Below are positions 20,639-48,828 of a DNA stretch of 64,000 nt, piece by piece (the stretch's first letter is position 1; each line of letters opens with the position of its first letter). A program made the translations under genes and the position numbers. The stretch covers positions 186,001 to 250,000 of the forward strand of contig NZ_SEWW01000001.1 of the NCBI RefSeq assembly GCF_011090385.1. Direction: 5' to 3'. Source of the stretch: Aquirufa beregesia (lineage in GTDB: Bacteria; Bacteroidota; Bacteroidia; Cytophagales; Spirosomataceae). The notes under the pieces were generated by a model that did not search any database, was not told the origin of the DNA, and worked only from the letters and a program-made list of their open reading frames with translations.

Positions 20639-23600
20639 GTGCATAGACATTTTGCATCTCGTGTTCTGATTGCGTTATTGGCTTTTTTGCTACTTACCTG
20701 GGTAGTGGAAGGGGTTCCTACCTATACGAATACGTTTTTTGCAGAAGATACTACCTTAGAAAAAAGTGGAAAAAGGCCAAGGTTTAACCTTAAGTCAATC
20801 AATCCTTTTAGTGTATTCCAAAACCAGTCGAAATCTCCTTTTTCTATTTATTCAATCAAAGGAGCTAAGACTTCCTTAACTTTTCAGGAACAAAATCAAT
20901 TAGTTCAATCTCAACAATTGGGTAATATAGCGGTACAGCCTGTTAGGCCCTTTTCCTTCCAAGAATATGCAAGAGAGCAAGACCGACAAGTCAATAGGAG
21001 TTTTTGGAATGCCTATTCAAAAAGTTTAGATGGAAGTAGTTCTTTACAATCTCGAGGTCTATTTCCTAAAATAGAATTACCACCTGCCATAGACCGTATT
21101 TTTGGGGGCAATGAGGTCTATTTTAAGCCTAATGGTAGTTTATTGTTGGACATCGGTTATATGGGGCAGTTTGTGGATAATCCTGCTATTCCTGTTCAAT
21201 TGCGCTATGTAGGAAATTTGTTTTTTAATGAACAGGCGCAAATTAACTTTCAAGGGAAAATTGGCGAAAAACTGAATTTGAATACCAATTTTGATACAAA
21301 GGCTAGTTTTAACTTTCAAAACCAACTAAAATTAAACTGGAAGACCCAGGAAGAAGATATTTTACAAAATATTGAATTAGGGAATACATCCTGGACGCTG
21401 AATTCCCAACTGATTCCAGGAGTTCAAAATTTGTTTGGTTTAAAGACTTTAATGAGGTTTGGGAACTTGGATGTGACTGTAGTGGCAGCTCAGCAACGTT
21501 CCAAACAAGATTGTATTACCTTAAAAGGAGGAGCACAAGGTAAATCCTTTGAGATACGAGCGGATCAGTACGATGAAAATAGACATTTTTTCTTATCAAG
21601 CTATTTTAGAAGTCAGTATGAACAGGCATTAAAAAATGTGCCTATGCTATCCTCAGGTATTAGCATTACCCGGGTAGAAGTTTATGTAACCAATAGAACA
21701 CAGAGTACTGAGACCCTTCGAAACCTAATTTCCCTTTCAGATTTAGGAGAATCTGCCCCATATAGTGCCAATAATCCGACCTTAAGTCCCATCATTCCCA
21801 ACCAACCAGTTGATAATAAAAACAATGGCTTGTATGATAAATTGGTGAATGACGCTGAAATTAGAAAATCTGATCAGGCCTCTTATCGATTGGAATCTGC
21901 ATATAATTTACAGAGAGGGACAGATTTCGATATGTTGAAAGGCGCCAAACGATTGAATGAAAGAGAATTTAAATTTCATCCAACCTTAGGTTATTTATCC
22001 TTGGTATCACCTCTAAGAAATGACGAAGTATTGGCGGTAGCTTATGAGTACACTTTAAATGGTAGAAAATACAAGGTGGGTGAGTTGACAGAAGATTATC
22101 AAGCAAGAAGAGATGACGAGGTGTTGGTGTTGAAAATGCTTAAATCCTCCACCATCCGTAATAATTTGTATCATCCCATGTGGGATTTGATGATGAAGAA
22201 TATTTATTCATTGAATACTAATGGTTTAGCTAAGCAAAATTTTCAGTTACGCATTGTATACAAGGATGATGCTACGGGTATTGATAATTCCAATTTGATT
22301 GAAGGTGAAAAATTAAAGGATATTCCTTTAGTGAAGGTATTGGGCTTGGACAAATTGAATTTTGCAGGTGATCCTCAACCGGACGGAAACTTTGACTTTG
22401 TGGAAGACTTAACCATCGATGCCAAAAATGGACGTATTATCTTTCCTGTTTTAGAGCCATTTGGTCGGGATTTGAAATCTCATTTTGGTCCGACGGAGTC
22501 CAATTTGGTCAGCAAATACGTTTTTGATGAGCTATACCGTAAGACTCAATCAGATGCATTGCAATTAGCAGGTAAAAATAAGTTCTTTCTGAAAGGTTCT
22601 TTCCAATCAGGCATGGGTAGTGATATTATGTTGCCTTTTGGAGTCGAAGCTAAATCTGTTACCGTTTCTGCTGGTGGGCAATTACTTACTTCTGGTACTG
22701 ATTTTATTGTAGAAGGGATGTCTGGAAGGGTAAAAATTATCAATGAAAGTATCTTTTCTTCAGGCAGAGAGTTGAAGATTTGTTATGAGAAGCCAGATTT
22801 GTTTTCCAACCAGGTACGTACTTTATTGGGGACTCGTTTAGATTATAATTTAGGTTCGGATTTTCATTTAGGAGCTACGTTTCAAAATATGAGTGAAAGT
22901 CCTCCGGCATTCTTTCGTCGTGTAGCTATTGGAAATGAACCCGTAAATAATACCTTGATTGGCTTTGATGCCAGTTTATTCCGTAAATCTAATGCCATTA
23001 CACGTGCTTTAGATGCATTGCCTATAGTATCGACTAAAGAGGCATCGGTTATTGATTTTCAAGGTGAGGTAGCTAAATTAATTCCTAATGTCAATGATCG
23101 CGTTCAAGGAAATGCCTTTATCGATGATTTTGAAGCGGCTCGCGTTGTTTACAATTTTTCTTCTCAGCCGACACTTTGGAAACCTGCTTCAACGCCTAAG
23201 GAGTTTATCATAGGCAATCCCAGAGATTTAACTTCTAATTTCAAACGTGCCAAGATTTCTGCCTACAATGTGGATGCCAGTATTTATGGGCAAGGTGGTT
23301 TTGGTTTAGATATTCCAGGTATAGATCCCAATAAAGTTAATGCGTATGCTTACGAAAGGGTTGTTACTCCCAAGGGATTATTTCCCAATAAAGACTTTGC
23401 CAATAATATCACCAATTTGCCTTTAGGGGTTTTAGATGTAGCCTATTTCCCTCAAGAAAGAGGTATTTATAACTTTAATACAAACTTGACATCCAAAGGA
23501 CTTTTGGCAGGAGATCCCAAAAATAATTTTGGAGCCATTACAAGGGCAATCAATTCAGATACGGATTTTGATAATGCCAATGTGGAGCAGATTGAGTTTT

Positions 23601-26600
23601 GGTTAATGAACCCTTTTGTAGCTGGGGAGCAAGGCAAGGTACGTGATGGCATTTTGAATAAGAATAATGAAACAGGGGGAAAGCTGGTATTCCATCTAGG
23701 AGATATTTCAGAAGACTTTATTCCTGATGGCTTTTCCAACTTTGAAAATGGGATTCCAGCAGGAGAGAAAATAACTTCTGGACCTTCTCAAAATGTGGAG
23801 GTAACCCAATGGGGTATAGCACCGAAAAGACAGTTTGTAATCAATGCATTTGATAATCAAGCCGGTCGGTCTACACAAGATGTAGGATTAGACGGATTAT
23901 CCAATCAGGTTTCTGAAGGTACTAGTGTTTCAGAAGAGACCTATTTCAAAGAATATTTGAACCAAATTCGTACCAAGGTTAGCGATCAAACTGCCCTCAC
24001 TAAATTAGTGAAAGACCCTGCAGGTGACGACTTTGATTATTATTTGAATGAGAAGTTCAATGGTACAGAAAGTTTGATTGAGCGCTATAAGAATTTCATG
24101 GGGCTGGAAAATAATTCACCTACTACCGCCAATCCAAGTAATACGAACTTTACGGAAGCCAATAGTATGGTTCCTGATCGGGAAGATTTAAACACGGATA
24201 ATACCGTGAATGAAGTAGAATCGTACTTTAAATATGAAGTGGATTTGAAATCTGGTCAATTGGAAGTAGGTAAAGGGTATATCGTGGATCGAGTGACAGA
24301 GAATGGTGTAGATTGGTATTTATTCCGTATTCCGATCAAGGATAAACCTACAGCAGTAGGAGGAATGAATAGTTTTAAATCCATTCGTTTTTTCCGCATG
24401 TTACTGACTCAATTCCAAGAACCAGTTGTATTGCGTTTTGCACAATTACAGCTGTCGGGTTATTCCTATCGTAAGTTTTTAGGAGATTTAGATAAGAAAA
24501 ATGGAGTAGATATTCCAGAGGCTTATGATGCCAAGTTTAAAGTGTCCTCCGTTAACATTGAAGAAAATGGTCCAGCTTCTAAAGGCACCAATACAATTCC
24601 TTATGTAGTTCCTCCTGGTTTTGTGCGTGATCAAGATATTACCACCATTAATAATGCGCGTTTAAACGAACAATCCATGAGTTTGTGTGTGGATAATTTA
24701 CGACCAGGAGATGCTCGTGCCGTATTTAAAAACACCAATTTTGACTTTATCAATTATAAACGACTTCGCATGTTTATTTCCATGCAAAGTCAAGATCAAA
24801 TCAATGGTAAAGTAGCGGCATTTATCCGTATAGGGACAGACTTAACGGATAATTACTATGAAGTTCAATCCGTTGGGTTAACTCAAACTCAAAAAGGCCA
24901 AAGTTTGGATTTGGAGATTTGGCCAATGGAAAATGAGTTTGATATTGAGTTCGATTTGTTAAAGCGGGCCAAAATGGAGCGCGATAAGCAAGGGAAATCG
25001 TTGAATGAACGCTTCTCGGTTCTCATGACAAGTTCATCAGGAAAGCAGTATAAAGTGACTGTCATGGGTAGGCCTGATCAAAGTGCCAGCATGACCATGA
25101 TGATTGGTATGCGAAATATTAGTACGGATGGTCCTAAGAGTTTTTGTATTTGGGTGAATGAATTGAGAGCTTCTGATTTTGATCAAACATCTGGAGAAGC
25201 AGCAGTAGGTAAATTGGGCTTAAAACTTGCTGATTTAGGAACCGTGATGATGAACGGTAGTTTCAAGAATTATGGTTTTGGAGGAGTACAATCGAAAATT
25301 TCGGATCGTTCACGTGAGAATTACGTAGAATATGGCATTACTGCTAATTTAAATTTGGAGAAATTTTTACCTGCGAGCTGGGGTTTCCGTATTCCATTTT
25401 TTATTACCTACGATAAGCGCAATATCTCACCTCAATTTGACCCACTAGATCCAGATATATTCTTATCTAATGCTTTAGAAACCAAGGGAGCAGGCTATGC
25501 TAAATTAGTGGAAGATAATACGGAGCGACGCGGGTTTAACTTTACCAATGTGCGTAAAGTCAAGAGTAATTTGTCTAAACGAGCCTATTTGTGGGATTTT
25601 TCAAATTTCACATTCTCCTATGCTTATTCTGAGATGCTCCGGTCGAGTACCATGATACATGCATATCAACAGTACAGTCAGCGGGCAAGTATCTTGTATT
25701 CCTTCACCACCAATAGTGCTTTTTGGGAGCCCTTTAACAAATGGAATACCAGCTCAGCTTGGTTAGATATCATCAAAGATTTTAATATTAATTGGAAGCC
25801 TAGTTCTTTTACTGTTAGGGCAGAAATGGACCGTAGTTTTATAAAAACTCAATTAAGAAATCAAGATTTGAATATCATTGGGGTGGCCCCTCAATTTGAA
25901 AAATATTGGTTCTTTAATCGCCAATATGCGTTGAATTGGAATTTGACAAAAAGTGTCATTTTCAATTATAATACCATGGTGAATGCCATCATTGATGAGC
26001 CTATTGGTGATATTGATACTCAAGCCAAGAGAGATTCCGTGATGAATAACATAAAGTCTTTTGGAAGGGCTAAGAATTTTGATCAACAGGCAGGTATCGT
26101 TTGGCGATTACCACTTCAAAAGCTTCCTCTGACAGATTGGATGAATGCGGATTATACCCACCGAATCGGTTATAATTATTATGCCAATTCGTTCAATATT
26201 CGAGATTCCTTAAATTTGCCTTTTGGAAATATTATTAAAAATACGCGAGAAAGAGCGATTAGTGGAAAAGTGGATTTCGTGTCTTTATACAATCGAATTA
26301 GAGCATTAAGATGGGCTAATACGCCGGCAGCAACGGGTAAAAATGTAGCTAGAAATCCTGGTGATGAAGAGGAAATTGCCATTCCAAGTAAATCGGTCTT
26401 GAAAACCTTTGCTCGTTTATTTTTAACCCTTCGCGGTATACAGGTTAATTATTCCGTCAATGAGTCAACCACCTTACCTGGTTTCTTACAACAACCAGGA
26501 TTGTTTGGATTAAATGGAAATACCTCAGCGCCTGGTTTGGATTTTGTTAGTGGCGGACAAGATGATGGCATTCGTTTTAAAGCCGCTCAAGAGGGTTGGT

Positions 26601-27760
26601 TGACCAAGAGTACGGTTCAAAATGTGCCTTTTACTCAATTGAGAAATACCAAATTCAGTTATATTACTCAATTAGAGCCCAATAAGGATTTACGTATTCA
26701 GTTAGAAGGAAATTACAATCGAGGAGATAATTACCAAGAATTTTTTAGGCCAACCAGTGTAGGCGGGAAATTTGTTAGTCAGAACCCTTTACGGTCGGGT
26801 AATTATTCCATGTCCTTTTTGTCCTTTTTAACAGCATTTAAAGACCCACAATTGGTTTTTGATGAATTTAGAAGTAATCGGGATGTTTTATTAGCCCGAC
26901 TCAATAGAGCTAAAGCAGCAGATGGTAGTTATAATATCAATTCCCAAGATGTATTAATTCCTTCCTTCTTTGCCGCCTATTCAGGTGTTTCGGCTCAAAC
27001 AGTTAAGTATTCTCCTTTTTATGATATTCCTTTACCTAACTGGAAGGTGGATTATAATGGTATTAATTTAATGCCTTGGCTCAAAAAGAAATTCAGTTCA
27101 TTTACCATTACACACATGTATTCCAGTACCTATAACGTGGGTAACTTCATTTCATCATTGGAATATGGGCAGTTTGAAAATGATTATGTCAACTTAACCT
27201 TGAATAGTTTATTGTACCCATTGTCTTCTCGTTTTGACTCTAAAACCAATACGTTAATTCCTGTCTATGTGATGAGTACGATCTCTTTCTCTGAAAGATT
27301 TTCACCTTTAATCGGTTTTAATGCGATCACCAAAAGTCGGGTTTCTTTGCGTTTGGAATATAATCAAGATCGAAATGTCGGTTTGAATTTATCGAATTCC
27401 CAAGTAGCGGAATTGTCTAATAAAGATTTCACAGTTTCCATTGGCTTTACACGAGCTAATATGTTAATTCCATTTAAGATTAATGGAGCCTTTGTTCGAT
27501 TGCCGAATGATTTAAGATTTAACATGAATTTAACTATCCGTGATACGCGGACTTTACAAAGAAAATTGGATGCTGAGACAATTGTGACTCAAGGGTTTAT
27601 CAATTTCCAGTTTAGACCGCAAATAACGTATTCCATCAATAATAAATTATCTGTGACAGCTTATTTCGATAAAATGATGAATAATCCACTAGTTTCAAAT
27701 TCATTCTACCGCTCTACTGTGGCAGGAGGATTCCAGATACGATATAGTTTATCAGAATAG
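20639..27760 (+). CDS. sprA: SprA, outer-membrane translocon of the type IX secretion system
   Basis: 2373 residues, matching the very large size of SprA (about 2400). SprA is a 36-strand outer-membrane beta barrel through which type IX substrates cross the outer membrane; it is also needed for gliding in motile species. An N-terminal signal sequence (about 8-26) is followed by SprA repeats with motifs such as IFGGNEVYFKPNGSLLLDIG and YNLQRGTDFDMLKGAKRLNE, and a C-terminal region rich in alternating aromatic beta strands. The start is GTG at 20639; no in-frame ATG gives a signal peptide. The 3681-residue protein at 37699 is a predicted client. Confidence 0.95.
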   Translation: MHRHFASRVLIALLAFLLLTWVVEGVPTYTNTFFAEDTTLEKSGKRPRFNLKSINPFSVFQNQSKSPFSIYSIKGAKTSLTFQEQNQLVQSQQLGNIAVQPVRPFSFQEYAREQDRQVNRSFWNAYSKSLDGSSSLQSRGLFPKIELPPAIDRIFGGNEVYFKPNGSLLLDIGYMGQFVDNPAIPVQLRYVGNLFFNEQAQINFQGKIGEKLNLNTNFDTKASFNFQNQLKLNWKTQEEDILQNIELGNTSWTLNSQLIPGVQNLFGLKTLMRFGNLDVTVVAAQQRSKQDCITLKGGAQGKSFEIRADQYDENRHFFLSSYFRSQYEQALKNVPMLSSGISITRVEVYVTNRTQSTETLRNLISLSDLGESAPYSANNPTLSPIIPNQPVDNKNNGLYDKLVNDAEIRKSDQASYRLESAYNLQRGTDFDMLKGAKRLNEREFKFHPTLGYLSLVSPLRNDEVLAVAYEYTLNGRKYKVGELTEDYQARRDDEVLVLKMLKSSTIRNNLYHPMWDLMMKNIYSLNTNGLAKQNFQLRIVYKDDATGIDNSNLIEGEKLKDIPLVKVLGLDKLNFAGDPQPDGNFDFVEDLTIDAKNGRIIFPVLEPFGRDLKSHFGPTESNLVSKYVFDELYRKTQSDALQLAGKNKFFLKGSFQSGMGSDIMLPFGVEAKSVTVSAGGQLLTSGTDFIVEGMSGRVKIINESIFSSGRELKICYEKPDLFSNQVRTLLGTRLDYNLGSDFHLGATFQNMSESPPAFFRRVAIGNEPVNNTLIGFDASLFRKSNAITRALDALPIVSTKEASVIDFQGEVAKLIPNVNDRVQGNAFIDDFEAARVVYNFSSQPTLWKPASTPKEFIIGNPRDLTSNFKRAKISAYNVDASIYGQGGFGLDIPGIDPNKVNAYAYERVVTPKGLFPNKDFANNITNLPLGVLDVAYFPQERGIYNFNTNLTSKGLLAGDPKNNFGAITRAINSDTDFDNANVEQIEFWLMNPFVAGEQGKVRDGILNKNNETGGKLVFHLGDISEDFIPDGFSNFENGIPAGEKITSGPSQNVEVTQWGIAPKRQFVINAFDNQAGRSTQDVGLDGLSNQVSEGTSVSEETYFKEYLNQIRTKVSDQTALTKLVKDPAGDDFDYYLNEKFNGTESLIERYKNFMGLENNSPTTANPSNTNFTEANSMVPDREDLNTDNTVNEVESYFKYEVDLKSGQLEVGKGYIVDRVTENGVDWYLFRIPIKDKPTAVGGMNSFKSIRFFRMLLTQFQEPVVLRFAQLQLSGYSYRKFLGDLDKKNGVDIPEAYDAKFKVSSVNIEENGPASKGTNTIPYVVPPGFVRDQDITTINNARLNEQSMSLCVDNLRPGDARAVFKNTNFDFINYKRLRMFISMQSQDQINGKVAAFIRIGTDLTDNYYEVQSVGLTQTQKGQSLDLEIWPMENEFDIEFDLLKRAKMERDKQGKSLNERFSVLMTSSSGKQYKVTVMGRPDQSASMTMMIGMRNISTDGPKSFCIWVNELRASDFDQTSGEAAVGKLGLKLADLGTVMMNGSFKNYGFGGVQSKISDRSRENYVEYGITANLNLEKFLPASWGFRIPFFITYDKRNISPQFDPLDPDIFLSNALETKGAGYAKLVEDNTERRGFNFTNVRKVKSNLSKRAYLWDFSNFTFSYAYSEMLRSSTMIHAYQQYSQRASILYSFTTNSAFWEPFNKWNTSSAWLDIIKDFNINWKPSSFTVRAEMDRSFIKTQLRNQDLNIIGVAPQFEKYWFFNRQYALNWNLTKSVIFNYNTMVNAIIDEPIGDIDTQAKRDSVMNNIKSFGRAKNFDQQAGIVWRLPLQKLPLTDWMNADYTHRIGYNYYANSFNIRDSLNLPFGNIIKNTRERAISGKVDFVSLYNRIRALRWANTPAATGKNVARNPGDEEEIAIPSKSVLKTFARLFLTLRGIQVNYSVNESTTLPGFLQQPGLFGLNGNTSAPGLDFVSGGQDDGIRFKAAQEGWLTKSTVQNVPFTQLRNTKFSYITQLEPNKDLRIQLEGNYNRGDNYQEFFRPTSVGGKFVSQNPLRSGNYSMSFLSFLTAFKDPQLVFDEFRSNRDVLLARLNRAKAADGSYNINSQDVLIPSFFAAYSGVSAQTVKYSPFYDIPLPNWKVDYNGINLMPWLKKKFSSFTITHMYSSTYNVGNFISSLEYGQFENDYVNLTLNSLLYPLSSRFDSKTNTLIPVYVMSTISFSERFSPLIGFNAITKSRVSLRLEYNQDRNVGLNLSNSQVAELSNKDFTVSIGFTRANMLIPFKINGAFVRLPNDLRFNMNLTIRDTRTLQRKLDAETIVTQGFINFQFRPQITYSINNKLSVTAYFDKMMNNPLVSNSFYRSTVAGGFQIRYSLSE

Positions 27761-37304: not shown

Positions 37305-37378
37305 GGACTTGTAGCTCAGTTGGTTAGAGCATCTGACTCATAATCAGGGGGTCCATGGTTCGAGCCCATGCTGGTCCA
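37305..37378 (+). tRNA. tRNA with CAU anticodon (elongator Met or Ile2)
   Basis: A complete cloverleaf can be folded over 74 nt. The D arm is GCTC/GAGC, the anticodon arm is TCTGA-CTCATAA-TCAGG with anticodon CAT at 37339-37341, and the T arm is CATGG-TTCGAGC-CCATG. The acceptor stem pairs GGACTTG with CTGGTCC, with a T-T mismatch at the sixth pair and a T-G wobble at the fifth. The discriminator is A and the CCA end is not encoded (CCC follows). A CAU tRNA can read AUG (Met) or, if modified with lysidine by TilS, AUA (Ile). The C4-G69 pair is compatible with the Ile2 type, but this does not decide it. Confidence 0.9.
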
Positions 37379-37390
37379 CCCCAACTTTAA

Positions 37391-37425: not shown

Positions 37426-37698
37426 GCTTTTAATAATATGAAATGCTGAATTTTTGTCATTACCTAGATACGCTCCATGCGAATTATGGAATATTTTATT
37501 ATTCGATTCTAGAACCGATTTTTAAACAAAATAATTTAAAAATAGCAGTGATCTGTTTCCATTTAAATGCATTACTAGTAAACTATTTTAAGTTTTATTA
37601 ACAAATATGTTCTTTATTTAAAACAGTCTAATCACCTTATTAAATTAATTTAATATTTTTGCTAATCATTACCTGTGGTTCTGTTTTAAAATATAAGT
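37426..37698 (+). other. AT-rich non-coding stretch before the giant surface protein
   Basis: About 270 bp of AT-rich DNA between the tRNA terminator and the giant gene. It holds a -7 element at 37654-37661. An open frame of 52 codons at 37443-37601 has no promoter, no recognised family and biased AT-rich codons; I do not call it a gene. No strong inverted repeat was seen. Confidence 0.6.
37654..37661 (+). promoter_or_regulatory. -7 element of the giant surface protein gene
   Basis: TATTTTTG, an exact TAnnTTTG match, 37 bp before the ATG at 37699. No TTG is found at the usual -33 spacing. Confidence 0.5.
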
Positions 37699-40600
37699 AT
37701 GCTACAAAAGTCAGTTCGGACTCTGTCCTTATTGTATTTTGTGCTAATGTCATCCCTTGTTCCGGCTTTTGCACAATTTCCCCTTGATTTGCTGAATTTA
37801 ACAGCCTCATCACCCGCAAGTGTGGCTTTTTCTGTTAGAAAATTGAGTACTTCTTATACAGGAAAGATTATGCAAGTTCGAAGAGCTAGTGATCATGCAA
37901 CTGTCGATATTGGTTTTGATTCAAACAGTGAACTGAGTGGGTCAAGTATTTGTACCGTGATATCTGCTGGTAGTTCTGGTTTAAGTCTTGGAGCAACGCT
38001 ATCATTTGCTAGCTTTTATGCAGGTACAGATGTATTTGTTAGTATTTGGTATGATCAATCGGGTAATAGTAATCATTTAACCCAGATTACGGCAAGTAAT
38101 CAACCTCAATTAGTGAGTTCTGGTAGCCTCATTTTAGAGGGAAATAAGCCCTTTTTGCGTTTTTCAGGTACTATTTCCGGCACAGATTATAAATCATTAG
38201 CTCTTGCTAGTGCTTTGTCTACCAACGCACTAGTAATGGCGGTGAATAAGTTCCAATCTAGTGGTTCTGGATTTTTATTGGGAGATGCAGCAAATAATAA
38301 CTGGAATTCTGGATCATCTAGTAATTTATTATTTAGCCCAACTTTGGCATCAAGTTCTATTAGAAATGGGGCAATTAATCAAAATGGAATCAATATTCCC
38401 ACAACTTCTGCTGTTTGGAATACCACATTAGGAATAAATTCAGTACAAGCTCAAACGGCTAATTCTGGTACAACTTGGGATAATATTGGTAGGGATCGCT
38501 TAAATGAGCACACTACTGGAGGTGGAGGTTGGTCTGAGCTGATTTCGTTCCCGTCTAGTTTAAGTATGGCCGATCGGATTAAAGTTGAATTAACAGAAAA
38601 TAGCTATTTTGGCATTCCAATTATTGAAATTAATTCAACAGGTTTTTCAACTTGTTCAGAGAAATTTACGATTACAGGTAAAGGATTAACGGCTAATATT
38701 GTTGTTACAGCACCAACAGGATATACGGTTTCTACCAGCCTTTCTGGAACTTACACCTCTTCGGTAACTTTAACTCAGTCAGGGGGTGTCGTAAATGAAA
38801 GTACTATTTATGTCAAACAAACAACAGGAGGGGCAGGCAATATTGTTATTTCCTCTACAGGTTTTACCAGTCAAAATTTAGCCATAGTTAATGCTTTACC
38901 CAACGCACCAACACAATCTGTTGGAAGCGTATCCACCAATCTGCAATTTACATATGCCTCTTCAAACAGTTCAAGAGGATTGGTTTTTAATCCTCTAAAT
39001 TCCTATTTATATAGCCCCAAAGTAAGTGATGCCCCAGTTATTCAAGTTTATTCTATCTCAGGAACTCTTATTACTGCCTCAAGTAGTATGCCGATTGGGG
39101 GACTTTCTAATAGTGCAATATCTTCATTAACTGTTGATAATTTAGGGAATGTGTACGTAGTTATGCCCCAAGCCAATGGTGTTGTTAAAATGGAATATGG
39201 GACTAACACTTTGAGTGTATTTGCCTCTATTACTAGCCCACAAGGCTCTGCCGTAGATAGTAACAATAATGTCTATGTAACCACTACAGGTAATGTTATT
39301 TACAAAATTACCCCAAGTGGGGTAGTTTCTACTTTTTGTAACGATTCACAAATAAATAATGCATTTGGGATATGTTTTGATCCTGATGGAAATATGTATG
39401 TGGCGAATCGAGGTGCAGCCAATATTTTAAAAATTGGTCCTACTGGTACTAGCGTTTCTGTTTATGCCTCCTCTGTTAATACCAACATTGCGGACTTAAT
39501 TCGTGATTCGAATGGAAATTTGTATTATCCCATTTTTGCAAGTTCTATTATACGAAAAGTAGCAACAGATAGAACAATTTCATCATATGCTTCGGGTATT
39601 ACAACTCCACAGGGCATGACATTTGATGCACAAGGATCAATCTATGTGGCAGGCAATGGGTCTTCTACTAAAAGTATCTATAAAATAACTCCACCAAGTC
39701 CAAATTCCATATGTAGTTCTGGTACCATGAATTTAGCAATTTCAGCTACTAGTGGACTAGTTGTTGGCGATTGGTATTCAAATTCATCTGGCGGCTCAGC
39801 GCTTTTTACAGGAACCAATGCAATAACCACTCCATCTACCAGTACTCCACTTATTTATTATGTTGAAAGCCGTAATAGTACGACTGGATGTGTTTCTAAT
39901 ACTAGAACAAAAATTGTTGCCCCTGTCAATGGTCTTGAAAGTATAACAGCAGGAAGTGCTTGTGAAACAACTTCGGCTAATTTAGCTGCCATAGGTACCA
40001 CAGGTACAGTAAAGTGGTATGATGCTTTAAGTGGTACAAATTTGTTGGGAAGTGGGGCAACCTTTTCAACTCCTTCACTTTCATCAACTACAACTTTTTA
40101 TGCACAAGCAGCTGCTACTAGTTGTCCAGAAAGTAGCAGAACTACGGTTATAGCAACTAGCATTCCACTTCCAAGCATTACATTGTCCTCCATTGCTTCA
40201 GTTTATCGATCATCAACTAGTTTTTCAATTCCTTATACTGCTATAACAAATTCTCCAGATCAGTATTCATTAACTACTGGAACTACCGCATTAAGTGGCT
40301 TTACGGCATTGACAAACTCGAGTTTGGTTTCTAGCCCAATTTCTGTGGGGATTCCAGTTAATTCAGCTCTCAATACATATAATTTCAATTTTTCAGTTAG
40401 GAATTCGGGAACAGGGTGTATCGCACCTACCTCTACATTTAATTTGGTGGTAAATGACATTCCGCCTTCAGGATTGACTTATTCTACTCCAGCTACTTTT
40501 TATCGGGGAGAGAATGCAACAAGTATTAGTCCTACTGTCACAGGATCAAATATTGTTTATTCAATAAACCCAGCTTTACCAACAGGATTAGCCTTAGATA

Positions 40601-43600
40601 TTAATACTGGTATTATTAGTGGTACACCCACTAGTATTGTTGCTTCATCTACTTATGTGGTAACGGCCACCAATTCTGGAGGTTCTACCACATATAATTT
40701 ACATGTAGAAGTTGTTCAAGGTGCTGCAGTTAAATTTATTATTACAGGTACTGGAACTCAAACAGCTGGAGCATCGCAGAACATTACGATTACAGCAGTA
40801 GATGTACTAGGTGAGACCGTTACAGCATATACAGGTGTTAAAAGTTTAGTTTTTTCTGGAGCGAATAGTTCCTCATCACCATCGACTGCACCAAAAGTAG
40901 GAAGCACTGACTTTGGTACAGCAACAAGCCTTACTTTCAGTAATGGTGTAGCTACAACTACATTAATACTATACAAAGCAGAAACGGCAAACATTGTAGC
41001 TTCCCAAGGTACAATTAGTACAACAGGATCTGATCGTTTGACAGTTATCGTTGGCCCATCAGGTATGAGTAAATTGGCTGTTAGTTTAACAGACCCTCAA
41101 ACATCTGGCACCGCCTTTACAGGCACGAATACTTTAACGGCACAAGATGCTTATGGTAATACGGTAACAGGCTTTAGTGCAGCAACGAATAACGTAACCG
41201 TGACATCAAGCTTAACAGGTACTATTACGGGCTTATCAGGCACGGATAAATTAAGTAGTGCCGGCGACTTTAGTAGTGGAGTAGCGAGCTTAAGCAGCTT
41301 AGGCTTGAAGTTCACAGGCACATCAGGTTCAGGGACGTTTACTTTTACTCCAACTACAGGTACAGCAGTTACAAGTTCAAGTATTCTAATTAATCCTGGC
41401 TCAGCAACTAAATTTGTGTTAACAGGTACTGCATCACAAACTGCCGGAAGCTCTCAAAATGTAACAGTTACAGCTAAAGATGCCAATGATAATATTGCAA
41501 CAACTTATACTGGTTCTCATTCAATAGTATTTTCAGGAGCCAATGGTTCCCTTAATCCAAGCACATCACCAACGTTTGCAGGGACTGTTTTTGGAACAGG
41601 AACTAGTTTAACGTTTACTAATGGTGTGGCAACAGGTCCAATGGTCTTGTACAAAACTGAATTAGCAACAGTGATTGGAAGTGATGGAACTATACATTCA
41701 AATTCTGGAGGTAGCTTACTTGTGACAGTCAGTTCAGCGGCCTTTGCAAAATTATCTTTAAGCTTAACGAGCCCCCAAGTGAGTGGCACCGCCTTTAGTG
41801 GCAGCAATAGCTTAACGGCCTTGGATGCCTATGGAAATACAGTAACTAGCTTTGATGCCAGTAGCAATAACATTACAGTAAGCACGAGCTTAAGTGGAGC
41901 AATTTCAGGCTTATCAGGCACGACTAAATTAAGTAGTGCCGGCGACTTTAGTAATGGAGTAGCTAACTTGACAAGCTTAGGCTTGAAATATACGGGAGCG
42001 GTAGGTTCAGGCACCTTCACGTTTAGTCCAGCTACAGGAACAGCAGCAACGAGCGGCAATGTGACAATCGGAGCAGGAGTGGCTAGTAAGTTTATCATTA
42101 CCGGAACTGGCACCCAAACGGCAGGAGGGACACAAAACATCACGATTACGGCGAAAGATGCGAGTGGAAATACAGCGACAACCTACAGTGGAGCTAAGTC
42201 CATCACATTCAGTGGCGCGAATGCCTCGAGCAGTCCAGTGACGAATCCAACGGTAGCAAGTACGGACTTTGGCACAGCGACAAGCCTTACTTTCAGCAAT
42301 GGAGTAGCCACGGTGAGCATGGGCTTATTCAAAGTAGAGTCGGCACAGATTGTAGCTACCGATGGATTGGTGAGCACAAGTGGATCAGATCGCTTGAGTG
42401 TAACCGTGAGTCCAGCCACCTTCAGCAAATTAGCTTTGAGCTTGACCGGACCACAGATCAACGGAGTAGCGTTTACAGGAACTAATAGCTTAACAGCACA
42501 AGATGCCTATGGCAATACAGTAACGAGCTTTGATGCCAGCAGCAATAACATTACAGTAAGCACGAGCTTAAGTGGAGCAATCACAGGCTTATCAGGAACG
42601 AATAAATTAAGTAGTGCCGGCGACTTTAGTAGTGGAGTAGCGAGCTTGACGGGCTTAGGCTTGAAATATACGGGAGCGGTAGGTTCAGGCACCTTCACGT
42701 TCACCCCAGTGAGCGGAACGGCAGTGACGAGTGGAAGTATAGACATCAATAGTGGTTCTGCGAATAAGTTTATCATTACAGGAACAGGTACTCAAACGGC
42801 AGGAACAAGTCAAACGCTTACGATTACAGCGAAAGATGCGCAAGGCAATACAGTAACAACATATACAGGAGCTAAGAGCTTAACCTTCTCAGGCGCAAAT
42901 AGTTCCTCATCACCAGTGACAACAGCAAAAGTAGGAAGCACTGACTTTGGTACAGCAACAAGCCTTACTTTCAGCAATGGAGTAGCGACAGCTAGTATGA
43001 GTTTATACAAAGTAGAGTCTGCTTCGATTAGTGTGACAGACGGAAGCTTAACTGCGAGTGGAGGAGGAGAATTAGCAGTGAGCGTATCGGTAGGATCATT
43101 TGCTAAGTTTAGCCTAGCTATGTCAGACCCTCAAACATCTGGCACCGCCTTTACAGGCACGAATACTTTAACGGCACAAGATGCTTATGGTAATACGGTA
43201 ACAGGCTTTAGTGCAGCAACGAATAACGTAACCGTGACATCGAGCTTGACTGGAAGCATTACGGGCTTATCAGGCACGGATAAATTAAGTAGTGCCAGCG
43301 ACTTTAGTAGTGGCGTAGCGAACTTAAGCAGCTTAGGCTTGAAGTTCACAGGCACGTCAGGTTCAGGGACGTTTACCTTTAGTCCAGCTACCGGAGCACC
43401 AGTAACTTCTGGTTCTATCACGTTAAATTCTGGAGCTGCAACAAAATTGATTATCACGGGCAGTGGAAGTCAAGTAGCAGGAGCAAGTCAAACGATTACG
43501 ATTACGGCGAAAGATGCGAGTGGCAATACAGCGACAACCTACAGTGGAGCTAAGTCCATCACATTCAGTGGCGCGAATGCCTCGAGCAGTCCTGCGACAA

Positions 43601-46600
43601 GCCCAACGGTAGCAAGTACGGACTTGGGTACAGCGACAAGCCTTACTTTCAGCAATGGAGTAGCTACAGCTACTTTAGCACTTTACCGTGCAGAATCAGC
43701 CACAGTGGCAGTTAGTGATGGTTCATTGGTCGCTACAGGTTTAGATCGACTAAGTATCACGGTAGGAGAATCCAGCTTAAGTAAATTTGCCTTAAACTTT
43801 AGTTCTCCGCAAAATAGTGGAGTGGCCTTTACATCAACCAATACAATTACAGCGCAAGATGCCTATGGAAATACAGTAACAGGCTTTAGTGCAGCAACGA
43901 ATAATGTAACAGTGACATCAAGCTTGACTGGAAGCATTACAGGCTTATCTGGAACAAACAAACTAAGTGGTGCAGGAGATTTTGTCAATGGAGTAGCCAA
44001 TGTTGCTAATACCCTTATTTTTACTGGTAATACAGGAAATGGCACATTTACTGCTACTGCAACAACCGGTGGAGCGACTGGATCAAGCCTTGTGACCATT
44101 GGTGCAGGAAGCGCTACAAAATTGATCATCACAGGCAGTGGAAGTCAAGTAGCAGGAGCAAGTCAAACGATTACGATTACGGCGAAAGATGCGAGTGGCA
44201 ATACAGCGACAACCTACAGTGGAGCTAAGTCCATCACATTCAGTGGTGCGAATGCCTCGAGCAGTCCAGTGACGAATCCAACGGTAGCAAGTACGGACTT
44301 GGGCACAGCAACAAGCCTTACTTTCAGCAATGGAGTAGCGAGTGCGAGCTTGAGCTTGTTCCAAGTAGAATCAGCGATGATAGCAGCCACAGATGGAAGC
44401 ATCGTAGCTGCAGGCTCAGACCGCTTATCGGTATCTGTAAGCGCAGGGTCATTCAGTAAAATGACAGTGAGCTTAACGAGCCCCCAAGTGAGTGGCACCG
44501 CCTTTAGTGGCAGCAATAGCTTAACGGCCTTGGATGCCTATGGAAATACAGTAACTAGCTTTGATGCCAGCAGCAATAACATTACAGTAAGCACGAGCTT
44601 AAGTGGAGCAATCACAGGCTTATCAGGAACGAATAAATTAAGTAGTGCCGGCGACTTTAGTAATGGAGTAGCTAACTTGACAAGCTTAGGCTTGAAATAT
44701 ACGGGAGCGGTAGGTTCAGGCACCTTTGTCTTTACTCCAACATTTGGTGGTTCAACAACAAGTTCTAATGTTAGTTTTAATCCTGGTGTATCTTCACGTT
44801 TATTACTATCTCCGATTTCTTCTTTTTCTGCAGGAACTTTACAGTCGTTAACAGTTTCATTAGTGGATGCATCAGGTAACCCTGTCAATGCGGATGAAAA
44901 TGGCCGAATATCTTTGACTGTAAAAACGGGATCAGGTTCCATTTTAGGTACTATTTCAGCAAATATGCTGTCAGGTCAAAATTTGGTTATATTTACTAAT
45001 TGGTCATATATTAAAAGTGAATCTGGAATAGTAATTGCTGCATTAGCCAGTTCATTAAATACCAGTAATTTAACTGGTAAAATTGGAGAGTCCAATGCAT
45101 TTTTAGTCTCGCCTGGAGTACCATACAAATATTCTGTTAGGTCAACACAATCTACTACTAGAGCAGGAAGCTCATTTATAGTAAAGGTATTAGCTAAAGA
45201 TATGTATGGGAATTTATGTTCCAATTTGTCTGGAGCCCAATTAATTAAATTTTTAGGGGCTAAAATAGCTCCAAATGGAAAAGATAATCCTATGGCTGGT
45301 TTAGTCACTTTTACGCCATTTTCTTCTTCTATTTTACCTAATTTAAAAGTTGAATGGAGTAAAAAATTGCCTAATATTTTTACTGTATTGAATATCTCTA
45401 CTAGTAAAGCCAATGTGGCAAATTCAATTTTGAATATAGTGCAGAGTGGTTTGAATGCATTTGGTTCCAGCTTTTCAGTTGATTTTGTCAATGGAGAAGC
45501 TAATGTTCAATTAATTTTAGTTAATGCTGAACTAGCCAATTTGGAAGCTATAAACCCGACAAGTACTTTAACCATTAGTGATGATGATAAATTATTAATG
45601 AATGTAACCGAAAGTGATTTTTTAACTTTCCAATATTATTTTGATGAAAAGCAAGATGCTGGGAAAGTAATTTCTGGCTATATGAAGGCAGTAGATATTT
45701 ACGGAAATACAATAACTAATTTTAATGCTGCTGTTAATCCAGTAACTATAATAGCGAAGTTGATTGTTGGCGGAGTAGTTAATGATCAAAGAGTTATTAT
45801 TCTAAATAAATCAACTGATTATATTAACGGAGTTGCCTATTTTTCTATTTTAGGTAATTTATTTCCTAGTGCATTGTCTGGTTCAATTCAATTAGAAATT
45901 ATTCCAAACTCTGGCAATACTGTTCAAACTCCCCAAATTGTTTTAATCCCACTTGATACAGATGGAGATAGTGTATCGGATGAACAAGAGTTAATAGATA
46001 AGACCGACTTGAACGATGGCTGTTCTTATTTGATGAGTTCGTTTGTCATGTCGAAAGCTTCATCTGCATGGAAAGCGCTGGATTGTGATGGTGACGGTTC
46101 TGCTAACGGAACAGACGTCGAGCCTTCTAATGCCTGTTCAGGCGGAGTGGCAGGTTATATTCCACCAAAAGGAAGTATTGGATATGCCAAATATTTTGCT
46201 GGCGACTGCGATAGCGATGGTATTTCGAATGAAATGGAATGTAACGGAGGATATTTAGGAACCGGTACTTGCCAAGACTTTGATTCAGACGGTATACCAA
46301 ACTTCTTGGATCCAGATTCGGATAATGATGGTATCCTAGATATGATCGAGAAGAATATGGATAGCGATGGAGATGGCGATGCCAACTACCTGGATTTAGA
46401 TTCGGACAATGACGGTATTTTAGATACTCAAGAAAGATCACCCGATACCGATGGAGATGGCATCATGAACTTCCTTGATGTAGATTCAGATAATGACGGT
46501 ATTTTGGATGCTTGGGAAGGAACAGATAATAAGCGAGGAACCATTGATGATAACTACGATGGCCGTGTAGATAAAAATGGCTCAGCTCCCGATGTGAACG

Positions 46601-48744
46601 GAAACGGATTAGCAGATTTCTTAGAAGGTAACCCAGCTCCAGTACCAGATACAGATACAGATGGCACACCAGATTATATCGACCTAGATTCTGATGGAGA
46701 TGGTGTTGCGGATAAAATCGAATTAACCAATGACCCAGATAAGGACGGAAGACCAAACTACCGCGATAAAGATTCGGATGGAGACTGGTTAGGAGATAGC
46801 GATGAACGAGATACGGACAACGACGGAGACCGTATCGCCAATTACCTAGATGATGATTCGGATGGCGACGGTATTCCAGATGCTTGGGAAGGAAAAGATA
46901 AGTGTAGAGAATGCACTAATACCAATGATGACAATGACAATGGTTGGGATGATCGAGGAGAATACAAAGCGGTGATAGATTCGGACAAAGATGGATCACC
47001 AGACTTCTTAGACCTAGATTCAGATAATGACTGCATCCGTGACGGTGTTGAAGGTGGCGCAGATTGGGATCAAGATAAATTGGCCAACTTCCGAGATACG
47101 GATTCTGACGGAGATGGTATTTTAGATCTAGTTGAAGTAGGCGATTGTAATAAACCATGGGATACCGATGGCGATGGTTTGAAAAACTTCGAGGATACTG
47201 ATTCAGATGGAGATGGAATTCCAGATAGCATTGAAGCCGGAAAAGATTTATCGAAACCTGTTGATACGGATGGAGATGGTATTGCAGATATGTTAGAATT
47301 GGATGCGGATAATGATACCATTCCAGATAAAGTGGAAGTAGGTAGCGATGTGTGGAAACCATTGGATTCGGATACTGATGGGAAGTATGACTTCCGGGAT
47401 ACCGATTCAGATAATGATACGGTATCTGACAAGTTAGAAGTGGGCCCAAATCCAAACATGCCAAGAGATACAGATAAAGATGGTAGTATGGATTATTTGG
47501 ATTTAGAAAGTGATGGAGACGGTATTTTGGATTCCTTAGAAGCTGGTAAAAAGGGTGATAGTCCTTTGGATAGTGATCAAGATGGTCTGTTTGATTTCCA
47601 AGATACTGATTCGGATAACGATGGTATGTTAGATAGTATTGAGGTAGGTGCTGATGTCAACAATCCCTTGAATACAGATGGTGATACCCATACAGATGGA
47701 ACACCGAAATACGATTACCGTGATACCGATTCAGATAATGATGGTATCCCTGATTTCATAGAAGCAGGAGCTAATCCATTGAAACCTCAGGATTCTGATG
47801 GTGATAACCTTCCAGATTACCGTGAATTGGATGCGGATAATGACGGAATCCCAGATAGTGTAGAAGCAGGCAAAGATCCAATGATTCCTGTAGATACGGA
47901 TAAAGATGGTCAAGCAAACTACACCGATACTGATTCGGACAATGATACGATCTCCGATAAAATTGAGGCAGGAGATAGCCCTAGAGTACCAGTGGATACC
48001 GATAAAGATAGCTTGCCAGATTATTTGGATTTAGACACTGATGGAGATACTATTCCAGATAAAGTGGAGGTAGGATCAGATCCAAGTAGACCAGTAGACA
48101 CGGATAAAGATGGTATATATGATTTCCGTGATTTGGATTCTGATAGCGATGGTATTCCAGATAAGATGGAAGCTGGTCTAAATCCCAATATCCCAGATGA
48201 TACCGATGGAGATGGTTTAGCAGATTACCGCGATATAGATTCGGATAATAACGGAATCTCGGATAAGGAAGAAGTGGGTCCAGACCCATTGCATCCAATT
48301 GATACTGACGGAGATGGAGTACCAGACTACAAAGATCCAGATGATGATGGAGATAGTATCCCAGATAAATTGGAGGATGATTTGAACTACGGAGCTTTAC
48401 CAGATTGCGATAAAGATGGAATACCTAATAGTAAGGATAAGGATATTTGCGAACCATTTGTGACGCAAGGATTCTCACCTAATGGGGATGGAATCAACGA
48501 TAAGTTTGTGATTCCAGGAATCATGAGCATGCCAAGCCACCATCTAAGCATCTTTAACCGTTGGGGTAATATTGTTTACGAAACCGACAATTATAAAAAT
48601 GATTGGGGTGGAGAGATATCTAAACAAGCATCATTTGTTTCAGGCGATGGAAGAATAGCTGATGGAGTTTACTTTTATTTTATTGATTTTAAAGGGGTTA
48701 AGTCTAATGTTCAATCATTTATTTACGTTAATCACATGAAATAG
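37699..48744 (+). CDS. Giant type IX-secreted multidomain surface protein
   Basis: 3681 residues. In order: a signal peptide (1-26, ending AFAQ); an arabinofuranosidase-catalytic-like fold without a clear active site (about 30-310, with SVRKLSTSYTGKIMQVRRAS and VSIWYDQSGNSNHLTQ); an Ig-like domain; an NHL/SMP-30-like propeller (about 420-670, repeated GNxYVV and IYKITPSG motifs); further Ig-like domains (about 670-1008); six tandem A+B units (1009-2363); divergent modules (2364-2750); an Asp-rich thrombospondin-3-like stalk (about 2753-3580) expected to bind calcium; and a type IX type B sorting domain (FSPNGDGINDKFVIPG..IFNRWGNIVYE, about 3587-3681). Probably a cell-surface adhesin exported through SprA and anchored or released by the type IX machinery. 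Ligand unknown. Confidence 0.9.
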   Translation: MLQKSVRTLSLLYFVLMSSLVPAFAQFPLDLLNLTASSPASVAFSVRKLSTSYTGKIMQVRRASDHATVDIGFDSNSELSGSSICTVISAGSSGLSLGATLSFASFYAGTDVFVSIWYDQSGNSNHLTQITASNQPQLVSSGSLILEGNKPFLRFSGTISGTDYKSLALASALSTNALVMAVNKFQSSGSGFLLGDAANNNWNSGSSSNLLFSPTLASSSIRNGAINQNGINIPTTSAVWNTTLGINSVQAQTANSGTTWDNIGRDRLNEHTTGGGGWSELISFPSSLSMADRIKVELTENSYFGIPIIEINSTGFSTCSEKFTITGKGLTANIVVTAPTGYTVSTSLSGTYTSSVTLTQSGGVVNESTIYVKQTTGGAGNIVISSTGFTSQNLAIVNALPNAPTQSVGSVSTNLQFTYASSNSSRGLVFNPLNSYLYSPKVSDAPVIQVYSISGTLITASSSMPIGGLSNSAISSLTVDNLGNVYVVMPQANGVVKMEYGTNTLSVFASITSPQGSAVDSNNNVYVTTTGNVIYKITPSGVVSTFCNDSQINNAFGICFDPDGNMYVANRGAANILKIGPTGTSVSVYASSVNTNIADLIRDSNGNLYYPIFASSIIRKVATDRTISSYASGITTPQGMTFDAQGSIYVAGNGSSTKSIYKITPPSPNSICSSGTMNLAISATSGLVVGDWYSNSSGGSALFTGTNAITTPSTSTPLIYYVESRNSTTGCVSNTRTKIVAPVNGLESITAGSACETTSANLAAIGTTGTVKWYDALSGTNLLGSGATFSTPSLSSTTTFYAQAAATSCPESSRTTVIATSIPLPSITLSSIASVYRSSTSFSIPYTAITNSPDQYSLTTGTTALSGFTALTNSSLVSSPISVGIPVNSALNTYNFNFSVRNSGTGCIAPTSTFNLVVNDIPPSGLTYSTPATFYRGENATSISPTVTGSNIVYSINPALPTGLALDINTGIISGTPTSIVASSTYVVTATNSGGSTTYNLHVEVVQGAAVKFIITGTGTQTAGASQNITITAVDVLGETVTAYTGVKSLVFSGANSSSSPSTAPKVGSTDFGTATSLTFSNGVATTTLILYKAETANIVASQGTISTTGSDRLTVIVGPSGMSKLAVSLTDPQTSGTAFTGTNTLTAQDAYGNTVTGFSAATNNVTVTSSLTGTITGLSGTDKLSSAGDFSSGVASLSSLGLKFTGTSGSGTFTFTPTTGTAVTSSSILINPGSATKFVLTGTASQTAGSSQNVTVTAKDANDNIATTYTGSHSIVFSGANGSLNPSTSPTFAGTVFGTGTSLTFTNGVATGPMVLYKTELATVIGSDGTIHSNSGGSLLVTVSSAAFAKLSLSLTSPQVSGTAFSGSNSLTALDAYGNTVTSFDASSNNITVSTSLSGAISGLSGTTKLSSAGDFSNGVANLTSLGLKYTGAVGSGTFTFSPATGTAATSGNVTIGAGVASKFIITGTGTQTAGGTQNITITAKDASGNTATTYSGAKSITFSGANASSSPVTNPTVASTDFGTATSLTFSNGVATVSMGLFKVESAQIVATDGLVSTSGSDRLSVTVSPATFSKLALSLTGPQINGVAFTGTNSLTAQDAYGNTVTSFDASSNNITVSTSLSGAITGLSGTNKLSSAGDFSSGVASLTGLGLKYTGAVGSGTFTFTPVSGTAVTSGSIDINSGSANKFIITGTGTQTAGTSQTLTITAKDAQGNTVTTYTGAKSLTFSGANSSSSPVTTAKVGSTDFGTATSLTFSNGVATASMSLYKVESASISVTDGSLTASGGGELAVSVSVGSFAKFSLAMSDPQTSGTAFTGTNTLTAQDAYGNTVTGFSAATNNVTVTSSLTGSITGLSGTDKLSSASDFSSGVANLSSLGLKFTGTSGSGTFTFSPATGAPVTSGSITLNSGAATKLIITGSGSQVAGASQTITITAKDASGNTATTYSGAKSITFSGANASSSPATSPTVASTDLGTATSLTFSNGVATATLALYRAESATVAVSDGSLVATGLDRLSITVGESSLSKFALNFSSPQNSGVAFTSTNTITAQDAYGNTVTGFSAATNNVTVTSSLTGSITGLSGTNKLSGAGDFVNGVANVANTLIFTGNTGNGTFTATATTGGATGSSLVTIGAGSATKLIITGSGSQVAGASQTITITAKDASGNTATTYSGAKSITFSGANASSSPVTNPTVASTDLGTATSLTFSNGVASASLSLFQVESAMIAATDGSIVAAGSDRLSVSVSAGSFSKMTVSLTSPQVSGTAFSGSNSLTALDAYGNTVTSFDASSNNITVSTSLSGAITGLSGTNKLSSAGDFSNGVANLTSLGLKYTGAVGSGTFVFTPTFGGSTTSSNVSFNPGVSSRLLLSPISSFSAGTLQSLTVSLVDASGNPVNADENGRISLTVKTGSGSILGTISANMLSGQNLVIFTNWSYIKSESGIVIAALASSLNTSNLTGKIGESNAFLVSPGVPYKYSVRSTQSTTRAGSSFIVKVLAKDMYGNLCSNLSGAQLIKFLGAKIAPNGKDNPMAGLVTFTPFSSSILPNLKVEWSKKLPNIFTVLNISTSKANVANSILNIVQSGLNAFGSSFSVDFVNGEANVQLILVNAELANLEAINPTSTLTISDDDKLLMNVTESDFLTFQYYFDEKQDAGKVISGYMKAVDIYGNTITNFNAAVNPVTIIAKLIVGGVVNDQRVIILNKSTDYINGVAYFSILGNLFPSALSGSIQLEIIPNSGNTVQTPQIVLIPLDTDGDSVSDEQELIDKTDLNDGCSYLMSSFVMSKASSAWKALDCDGDGSANGTDVEPSNACSGGVAGYIPPKGSIGYAKYFAGDCDSDGISNEMECNGGYLGTGTCQDFDSDGIPNFLDPDSDNDGILDMIEKNMDSDGDGDANYLDLDSDNDGILDTQERSPDTDGDGIMNFLDVDSDNDGILDAWEGTDNKRGTIDDNYDGRVDKNGSAPDVNGNGLADFLEGNPAPVPDTDTDGTPDYIDLDSDGDGVADKIELTNDPDKDGRPNYRDKDSDGDWLGDSDERDTDNDGDRIANYLDDDSDGDGIPDAWEGKDKCRECTNTNDDNDNGWDDRGEYKAVIDSDKDGSPDFLDLDSDNDCIRDGVEGGADWDQDKLANFRDTDSDGDGILDLVEVGDCNKPWDTDGDGLKNFEDTDSDGDGIPDSIEAGKDLSKPVDTDGDGIADMLELDADNDTIPDKVEVGSDVWKPLDSDTDGKYDFRDTDSDNDTVSDKLEVGPNPNMPRDTDKDGSMDYLDLESDGDGILDSLEAGKKGDSPLDSDQDGLFDFQDTDSDNDGMLDSIEVGADVNNPLNTDGDTHTDGTPKYDYRDTDSDNDGIPDFIEAGANPLKPQDSDGDNLPDYRELDADNDGIPDSVEAGKDPMIPVDTDKDGQANYTDTDSDNDTISDKIEAGDSPRVPVDTDKDSLPDYLDLDTDGDTIPDKVEVGSDPSRPVDTDKDGIYDFRDLDSDSDGIPDKMEAGLNPNIPDDTDGDGLADYRDIDSDNNGISDKEEVGPDPLHPIDTDGDGVPDYKDPDDDGDSIPDKLEDDLNYGALPDCDKDGIPNSKDKDICEPFVTQGFSPNGDGINDKFVIPGIMSMPSHHLSIFNRWGNIVYETDNYKNDWGGEISKQASFVSGDGRIADGVYFYFIDFKGVKSNVQSFIYVNHMK
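40723..44787 (+). repeat. Six tandem in-frame units of 678 bp (one of 675 bp)
   Basis: Unit starts by reading frame: 40723, 41401, 42079, 42757, 43435 and 44110; the sixth ends at 44787. Lengths are 678, 678, 678, 678, 675 and 678 bp, that is 226 residues (225 in unit 5). Each unit is an A module (KFIITGTGTQTAG..., about 113 residues) and a B module (TSGTAFTGTNTLTAQDAYG..., about 113 residues), both beta-rich Ig-like. Stretches of B1 and B4, of B2, B3 and B6, and of A3, A5 and A6 are nearly identical even at third codon positions. Unit 7 and later modules are strongly diverged. Confidence 0.9.
45955..48440 (+). repeat. Thrombospondin type 3-like calcium-binding repeat stalk
   Basis: About 830 residues made of repeats with the pattern DTDxDGxxDYxDxDSDxDGIPDxxEAGxxP and a period of about 38-40 residues in the regular part. 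The DxDxDG cores are EF-hand-like calcium sites as in thrombospondin type 3 repeats. Around a dozen regular units follow several irregular ones that include Cys residues. The region is extremely acidic. The codon periodicity causes long spurious open frames on the minus strand. Confidence 0.88.
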
Positions 48745-48769
48745 GTAGATGTGTCCTACTATTTTTTTT
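48740..48769 (+). terminator. Probable terminator of the giant surface protein gene
   Basis: AATAG-G-TAG (48740-48748) pairs with CTA-CTATT (48756-48763), an 8-bp stem with one bulged G, followed by T8. It overlaps the stop codon. The stem is weaker than others in the window. Confidence 0.55.
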
Positions 48770-48828
48770 GATTAAAAATATAATAAATGGAATATTTAGT
48801 AGATTGATTCTTATTAAAATATTCAAAA

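Follow-up and report, generated by a model that had tools for sequence, protein, structure and literature searches.

How does a row of six repeat units of almost constant length, lying within one gene, come to look as if it had been built in blocks of three? The question arises from 64 kb of Aquirufa beregesia DNA (NZ_SEWW01000001.1, positions 186,001 to 250,000; hereafter the window), which form part of contig C10 in an assembly of 72 contigs and 3.23 Mb. Here, a predicted adhesin carries six tandem pairs of immunoglobulin (Ig)-like modules, A and B. Our answer, to which we give a probability of about 0.77, is that the array is a mosaic, apparently produced by ectopic gene conversion, with a giant paralogue on contig C4 as donor, together with conversion inside the array, and that the apparent super-period would be the trace of the same donor modules having been used repeatedly.

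An earlier note on this DNA had described six in-frame units at 40723-44787, with lengths of 678, 678, 678, 678, 675 and 678 bp, and this description holds in full, all of them lying in one open frame. Each unit consists of an A module (113 aa) and a distantly related B module (113 aa, or 112 aa in B5, where the single-codon deletion of the array sits). High self-similarity is found at multiples of the unit only (offsets 675, 678, 1353, 1356, 2031, 2034, 2709, 2712, and 3387), against a background below 45%, so that the array lies far beyond chance. The likenesses listed in the note were recovered as well: in nucleotide identity, B1/B4 reach 84.4%, A1/A4 69.0%, A3/A6 79.1%, and B3/B6 78.2%, while A5 is closest to A6 (80.8%) and then to A3 (74.6%), and B2 to B6 (85.5%) and then to B3 (79.6%). 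As proteins, the A modules are 52-81% and the B modules 58-83% identical, neighbours mostly staying below 80%.

The mosaic reading rests on where these modules find their closest relatives. The A-B family is also present in the same genome on contigs C4, C6, C7, C8, C9, and C63, and in pairwise alignments of a 510-module set the nearest whole-module neighbours of A3 (96.8%), A6 (95.3%), B4 (97.6%), and B3 (90.6%) all lie in C4; on the other five contigs, no A module exceeds 67% and no B module 74%. Several tracts are closer to the C4 gene (96-99%) than to any unit of the array itself. In particular, B1 and B4 have a single C4 counterpart, 35-287: B1 matches it at 98.8%, the tract that contains B4 matches the same stretch at 97.2%, but B1 and B4 agree with each other at only 96.0%. 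The patchwork gene conversion proposed earlier is thereby given localised tracts, and in addition a donor outside the array, on another contig.

The polarity of this exchange can be read from the orthologues of the C4 gene. From module B228 on, the C4 modules pair one-to-one and in order with those of A. ecclesiirivi (C33), A. aurantiipilula (C3), and A. nivalisilvae (C35), at about 75-86%, and because of these ordered partners we regard the positional identity of the giant-gene arrays as kept across species. In the C-terminal region (46249-48618), the adhesin is largely 98-100% identical to C4, against mostly 77-94% between the C4 gene and its orthologues. At about 47449-47606, and again after about 48620, the adhesin departs from C4 and shows 61-79% to the orthologues, while C4 stays close to them. 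Since the adhesin, where unlike C4, is also unlike all orthologues, and C4 is not, C4 is the donor of the C-terminal part. By analogy, the direction from C4 to the adhesin would hold for the array tracts too. Following the array, 44788-46248 has only about 50-54% protein identity to the giant gene on C4 and to that gene's orthologues, and would be an old part left unconverted. The regions flanking it are near-identical to C4 in places.

Within the array, tracts were found by maximal-segment tests, with P obtained by site permutation (P ≤0.0005 each). Between units they are 94-98% alike over ~170-260 bp, the units otherwise being 54-72% alike, and they connect units at lags of 1, 2, 3, and 4 (Table 1); over all tracts, the figures are 94-99%, with sharp ends, and 33-72% outside. 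Besides those tabulated, units 2 and 3 share a tract at 41824-42023 (94.0%) and units 3 and 5 one at 42142-42308 (95.2%); units 2 and 5 have no more than a 23-bp match. The B tracts finish at a common unit offset of about 616-622, and the A5 tracts finish at the same base, 43664. The A-B pair is the basic unit of a giant stalk-gene family in several Aquirufa species. In our picture, homologous recombination (gene conversion) would have built the present array and probably still overwrites it, some short tracts having been copied from the giant paralogue ending on C4, at times with one donor module placed twice, and others from unit to unit of the array.

Table 1. Features of the array, the adhesin gene, and its insertion site (positions in the window; C4 positions on that contig)
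Feature	Position	Strand	Evidence or closest match
Unit 1	40723-41400 (A1 40723-41061, B1 41062-41400)	+	
Unit 2	41401-42078 (A2 41401-41739, B2 41740-42078)	+	
Unit 3	42079-42756 (A3 42079-42417, B3 42418-42756)	+	
Unit 4	42757-43434 (A4 42757-43095, B4 43096-43434)	+	
Unit 5	43435-44109 (A5 43435-43773, B5 43774-44109, one codon shorter)	+	
Unit 6	44110-44787 (A6 44110-44448, B6 44449-44787)	+	
B1 tract	41090-41342	+	98.8% to C4 35-287, 96.0% to B4 (43124-43376); outside 54% and 65%
B2 tract	41761-42017	+	98.1% to B6 (44470-44726, lag 4); outside 54.2%
B2 end through A3 into B3	42010-42704	+	96.1% to C4 955-1649
B3/B6 tract (units 3/6)	42502-42695	+	96.4% to 44533-44726
B4 to mid-A5 tract	43090-43664	+	97.2% to C4 1-575; 49% beyond
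A5/A6 tract (units 5/6)	43441-43664	+	95.5% to 44116-44339, lag 1
A6 tract	44116-44438	+	98.5% to C4 352-674
C-terminal TSP3-like region	46249-47444	+	98-100% to C4, exact runs up to 531 bp
Second C-terminal stretch	47607-48618	+	99-100% to C4, exact run 610 bp; CHU_C end after it diverges
Candidate partly collapsed two-copy repeat	42082-43247	+	bounded by copies of C7 right end and C4 left end
Adhesin gene ORF, 3681 aa	37699-48744	+	ORF list, Pfam/NCBIfam
CHU_C / type IX secretion system type B sorting domain	48460-48729	+	Pfam, NCBIfam
tRNA-Met (CAT), left edge of insertion site	37305-37380	+	ARAGORN; with terminator conserved in five relatives
Lineage-specific insert, whole adhesin gene (approximate limits)	37430-48815	+	homology stops near 37430, resumes near 48815

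The three-unit signal itself fared less well than the likenesses from which it had been deduced. A super-period at 2034/2031 bp had been claimed, and mean identity at lag 3 (71.4%) is indeed the highest of all lags (others 65.5-67.3%), but it is matched by 20% of all 720 unit orders (P about 0.2). The corresponding history, a block of units 1-3 duplicated to 4-6 with the middle units later blurred by gene conversion, would fit this maximum and the likeness of units 1/4 and 3/6; of its two components, we retain the conversion, localised by tract, and abandon the duplication, which we consider very improbable. Synonymous distances (dS) of the would-be duplicates are uneven: 0.29 for B1/B4, 0.55 for A3/A6, 0.69 for B3/B6, 0.84 for A1/A4, 1.46 for B2/B5, and 2.31 for A2/A5, and because of this spread, a single-event origin of the paired modules fails without wholesale later replacement. 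Moreover, likeness is confined to tracts: outside their one 253-bp tract (96.0%), units 1 and 4 fall to 65% (65.2%), near the family background of about 60-64%. The best single self-match has an offset of 2709 (four units, B2/B6), not 2034, and in other Aquirufa arrays similar pairs are spread over many lags. A genus-wide habit of three units was likewise rejected, as about 20 other arrays share no preferred lag in their spectra and, among A modules, pairs at 85% or more are most frequent at lag 2. A simpler history, in which single units were duplicated in tandem, each independently, and then diverged in the ordinary way without conversion, would account for the nearly constant unit lengths, and one such duplication is visible in the A. 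nivalisilvae paralogue (C35, L042), where, relative to three collinear arrays, one unit was doubled recently (modules A1379/A1606; 94.2% between the A and 85.0% between the B modules). Unit number does change, this paralogous array differing by one unit between species. For the adhesin, we nonetheless hold this history to be extremely unlikely, since tract edges are sharp and lie inside units, and another locus matches better than the neighbours do.

Could the six-unit order instead be an artefact, contig C10 having been misjoined at a repeat that the giant gene also carries? The last 127 bp of C7 are an exact copy of 42082-42208, and the first 158 bp of C4 of 43090-43247; the other family contigs break likewise, C4, C6, C7, C8, C9, and C63 sharing exact 127-bp pieces at their ends in a comparison that took in contigs found by protein search. 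A value of 127 is a common largest k-mer of SPAdes. A related strain had been assembled by this program from 2x150 reads in published work (PMC9163014). Probably, the giant gene runs from C7 through a copy of 42082-43247 into C4, the shared ~1.2 kb having been placed once, in the adhesin contig; this stretch is probably collapsed, and its fine content is not secure. Assembly collapse, which the earlier note had named as grounds for giving up its reading, is thus partly in evidence, C7 and C4 ending on exact array copies, while the outer join of C10 stands. The flanks of C10 adjoin in five relatives, showing the large-scale join to be right, and the right part of C4 is collinear with its orthologues, limiting the doubt to the content of 42082-43247; we therefore judge an unreal six-unit order quite improbable, and a gross misjoin of the window was rejected on the synteny in those relatives. 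Some points do weigh against the mosaic as we describe it: in the tract test, sites are permuted one by one, with no account taken of codon structure or functional constraint; some of the shared motifs (DAYGN) are conserved throughout the family; and the lineage is represented by one assembly, apparently short-read, in which conversion in the array is not fully separable from graph collapse at 42082-43247. Seen together, the A-B family contigs look like one giant gene broken up by the assembler, and the number of repeats that a short-read assembly gives for this family is not to be relied on.

The gene that received these tracts is itself peculiar to the lineage. In five relatives (G005, G016, G018, G021, and G033), about 310 bp separate a DUF1003 gene from an ALO-type oxidase gene, and the tRNA-Met lies in this interval, whereas the distance in A. 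beregesia, with the insert downstream of the tRNA-Met gene, is 11.6 kb. Searches of 38 genomes of the genus (E-values up to 1e-30) and of 291 from the order (up to 1e-25) gave no other match to the N-terminal part of the adhesin. Because the site is empty in the relatives and the N-terminus matchless, we regard the gene as lineage-specific, to all appearance an insertion private to the lineage, by acquisition or new construction. Integration mediated by the tRNA was considered and rejected: the right edge, inspected by eye, showed no second tRNA end, and the sole flanking repeat found is a weak, AT-rich, 11-bp direct repeat (ATGGAATATTT) at 37486 and 48787, near the insert edges, which might reflect a target-site duplication or chance in AT-rich DNA.

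The anatomy of the adhesin gene is well supported. After an export signal-like start, judged from sequence, the first 1008 aa comprise an AbfB/LamG-like domain, propeller repeats, and Ig domains (Pfam, NCBIfam); the six AB units follow, and after them come a degenerate Ig region, TSP3-like Asp-rich repeats scoring below the Pfam and NCBIfam cut-offs, and a type B sorting domain of the type IX secretion system (T9SS), recognized by PF13585 (80.6 bits; cut-off 27) and TIGR04131 (39.6 bits; cut-off 35). The export machinery is present, with the SprA translocon encoded in the same window (20639-27760; SprA_N 523.5 bits) and six PorP/SprF-family genes in the genome. No Pfam or NCBIfam model, including the Pfam Big and Invasin domains, matched the array above cut-off, Ig_GEX2_N, Filamin, and He_PIG remaining below it, and no sequence relatives of the array profile were found in the PDB. 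An AlphaFold2 model of one AB unit (unit 3, with 46 other units in the alignment) is all beta, with a mean predicted local distance difference test score (pLDDT) of 97.5. With this model, Foldseek retrieved SbsC (2.4e-7), InvD (3.4e-6), and many antibody Fab matches; SbsC, an S-layer protein of bacteria, and two stalks of the invasin type, InvD and invasin, are thus among the nearest solved folds. Because template modeling scores over the two-domain chain are low (about 0.3-0.4), the modelled fold is tentatively called Ig-like, with no closer family assignable.

With respect to function, the gene most likely encodes an ordinary surface stalk, a type IX-secreted stalk or adhesin: its domain order suggests a long T9SS-exported protein, attached to the surface or released there, whose array would form the stalk and whose N-terminal domains could serve as a binding head, and an adhesive role and surface exposure are predicted on the same grounds. 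Alternatively, the gene could encode an enzyme or matrix component in which the array is a mere spacer without adhesive role, leaving the mosaic origin unchanged. The N-terminal matches to the ArabFuran-catal and propeller models speak for this, but the AbfB match covers positions 8-89 of the 315 of the catalytic model, making an intact catalytic domain unlikely; we hold this alternative to be unlikely, though worth reckoning with.

Taken as a stalk, the adhesin is a clean further case of a known kind of system. Like the periscope proteins (PMC8201768, PMC9704523), it would be a single-chain bacterial surface protein with tandem folded stalk domains, in which recombination between repeats alters the array. 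Periscope proteins are, however, defined by repeats at least 80% identical and by strain length variation, whereas the adhesin modules are 52-83% identical as proteins, mostly keep their individual identity, and are exchanged between loci; the model of one AB unit supports folded domains, of which a rod may be built. Invasin/intimin-type and S-layer stalks share the fold neighbourhood described above but no sequence relation above cut-off, and the adhesin is predicted to leave through the T9SS rather than an inverse autotransporter barrel. With the SprB-like giant T9SS type B proteins of gliding Bacteroidota, it has the CHU_C/TIGR04131 domain and the very long, repetitive secreted chain in common; the SprB repeat (PF13573), however, was absent among Pfam matches of the whole adhesin and its pieces, and an Ig-like pair takes its place. 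Gliding motility has been reported in described Aquirufa species (PMC9163014). In P. gingivalis, of the same phylum, domain recombination also diversifies surface proteins (PMC5266723), but between strains, while our evidence concerns paralogues inside one genome. The giant, repetitive extracellular proteins of Apilactobacillus kunkeei likewise have a recombination history (PMC12863079), though no recent gene conversion between paralogues was reported there, in contrast to the recent and clear exchange seen here.

If the mosaic reading is right, the stalk repeats of giant T9SS proteins in a free-living bacterium are reshaped both from other loci and from inside their own array, as localised tracts and orthologue controls suggest, and such exchange can leave what looks like a super-period. 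The exchange polarity and the empty site make this case directly testable. We also entertain, as a rather doubtful extension, that the tRNA-Met-adjacent gene is a dedicated recipient locus, a second copy in which the giant gene time and again overwrites stalk and C-terminus; if true, a free-living bacterium of fresh water would thereby diversify its surface rapidly, with a logic like that of the donor-and-expression-site systems of pathogens.

The donor family reaches remarkable sizes elsewhere in the genus. In A. ecclesiirivi (G033), contig C34 holds an open frame of 14232 aa made of A-B units and reaching near the contig end (L034-L036), the start of which is homologous to that of the A. beregesia gene on C63. 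A likely continuation of 3364 aa lies on C33 (L037), and the giant protein of this species possibly exceeds 17,000 aa in a 3-Mb genome. Runs of N, marking scaffold gaps in giant genes, are found inside the repeat regions of A. aurantiipilula C3 (L039; 4251-4347) and A. nivalisilvae C36 (L040; 10250-10345). The Ig-like pair repeats are known almost solely from Aquirufa; outside the genus, a Daejeonella genome (L063) has a 4972-aa frame with related modules, in which the A/B order is irregular.

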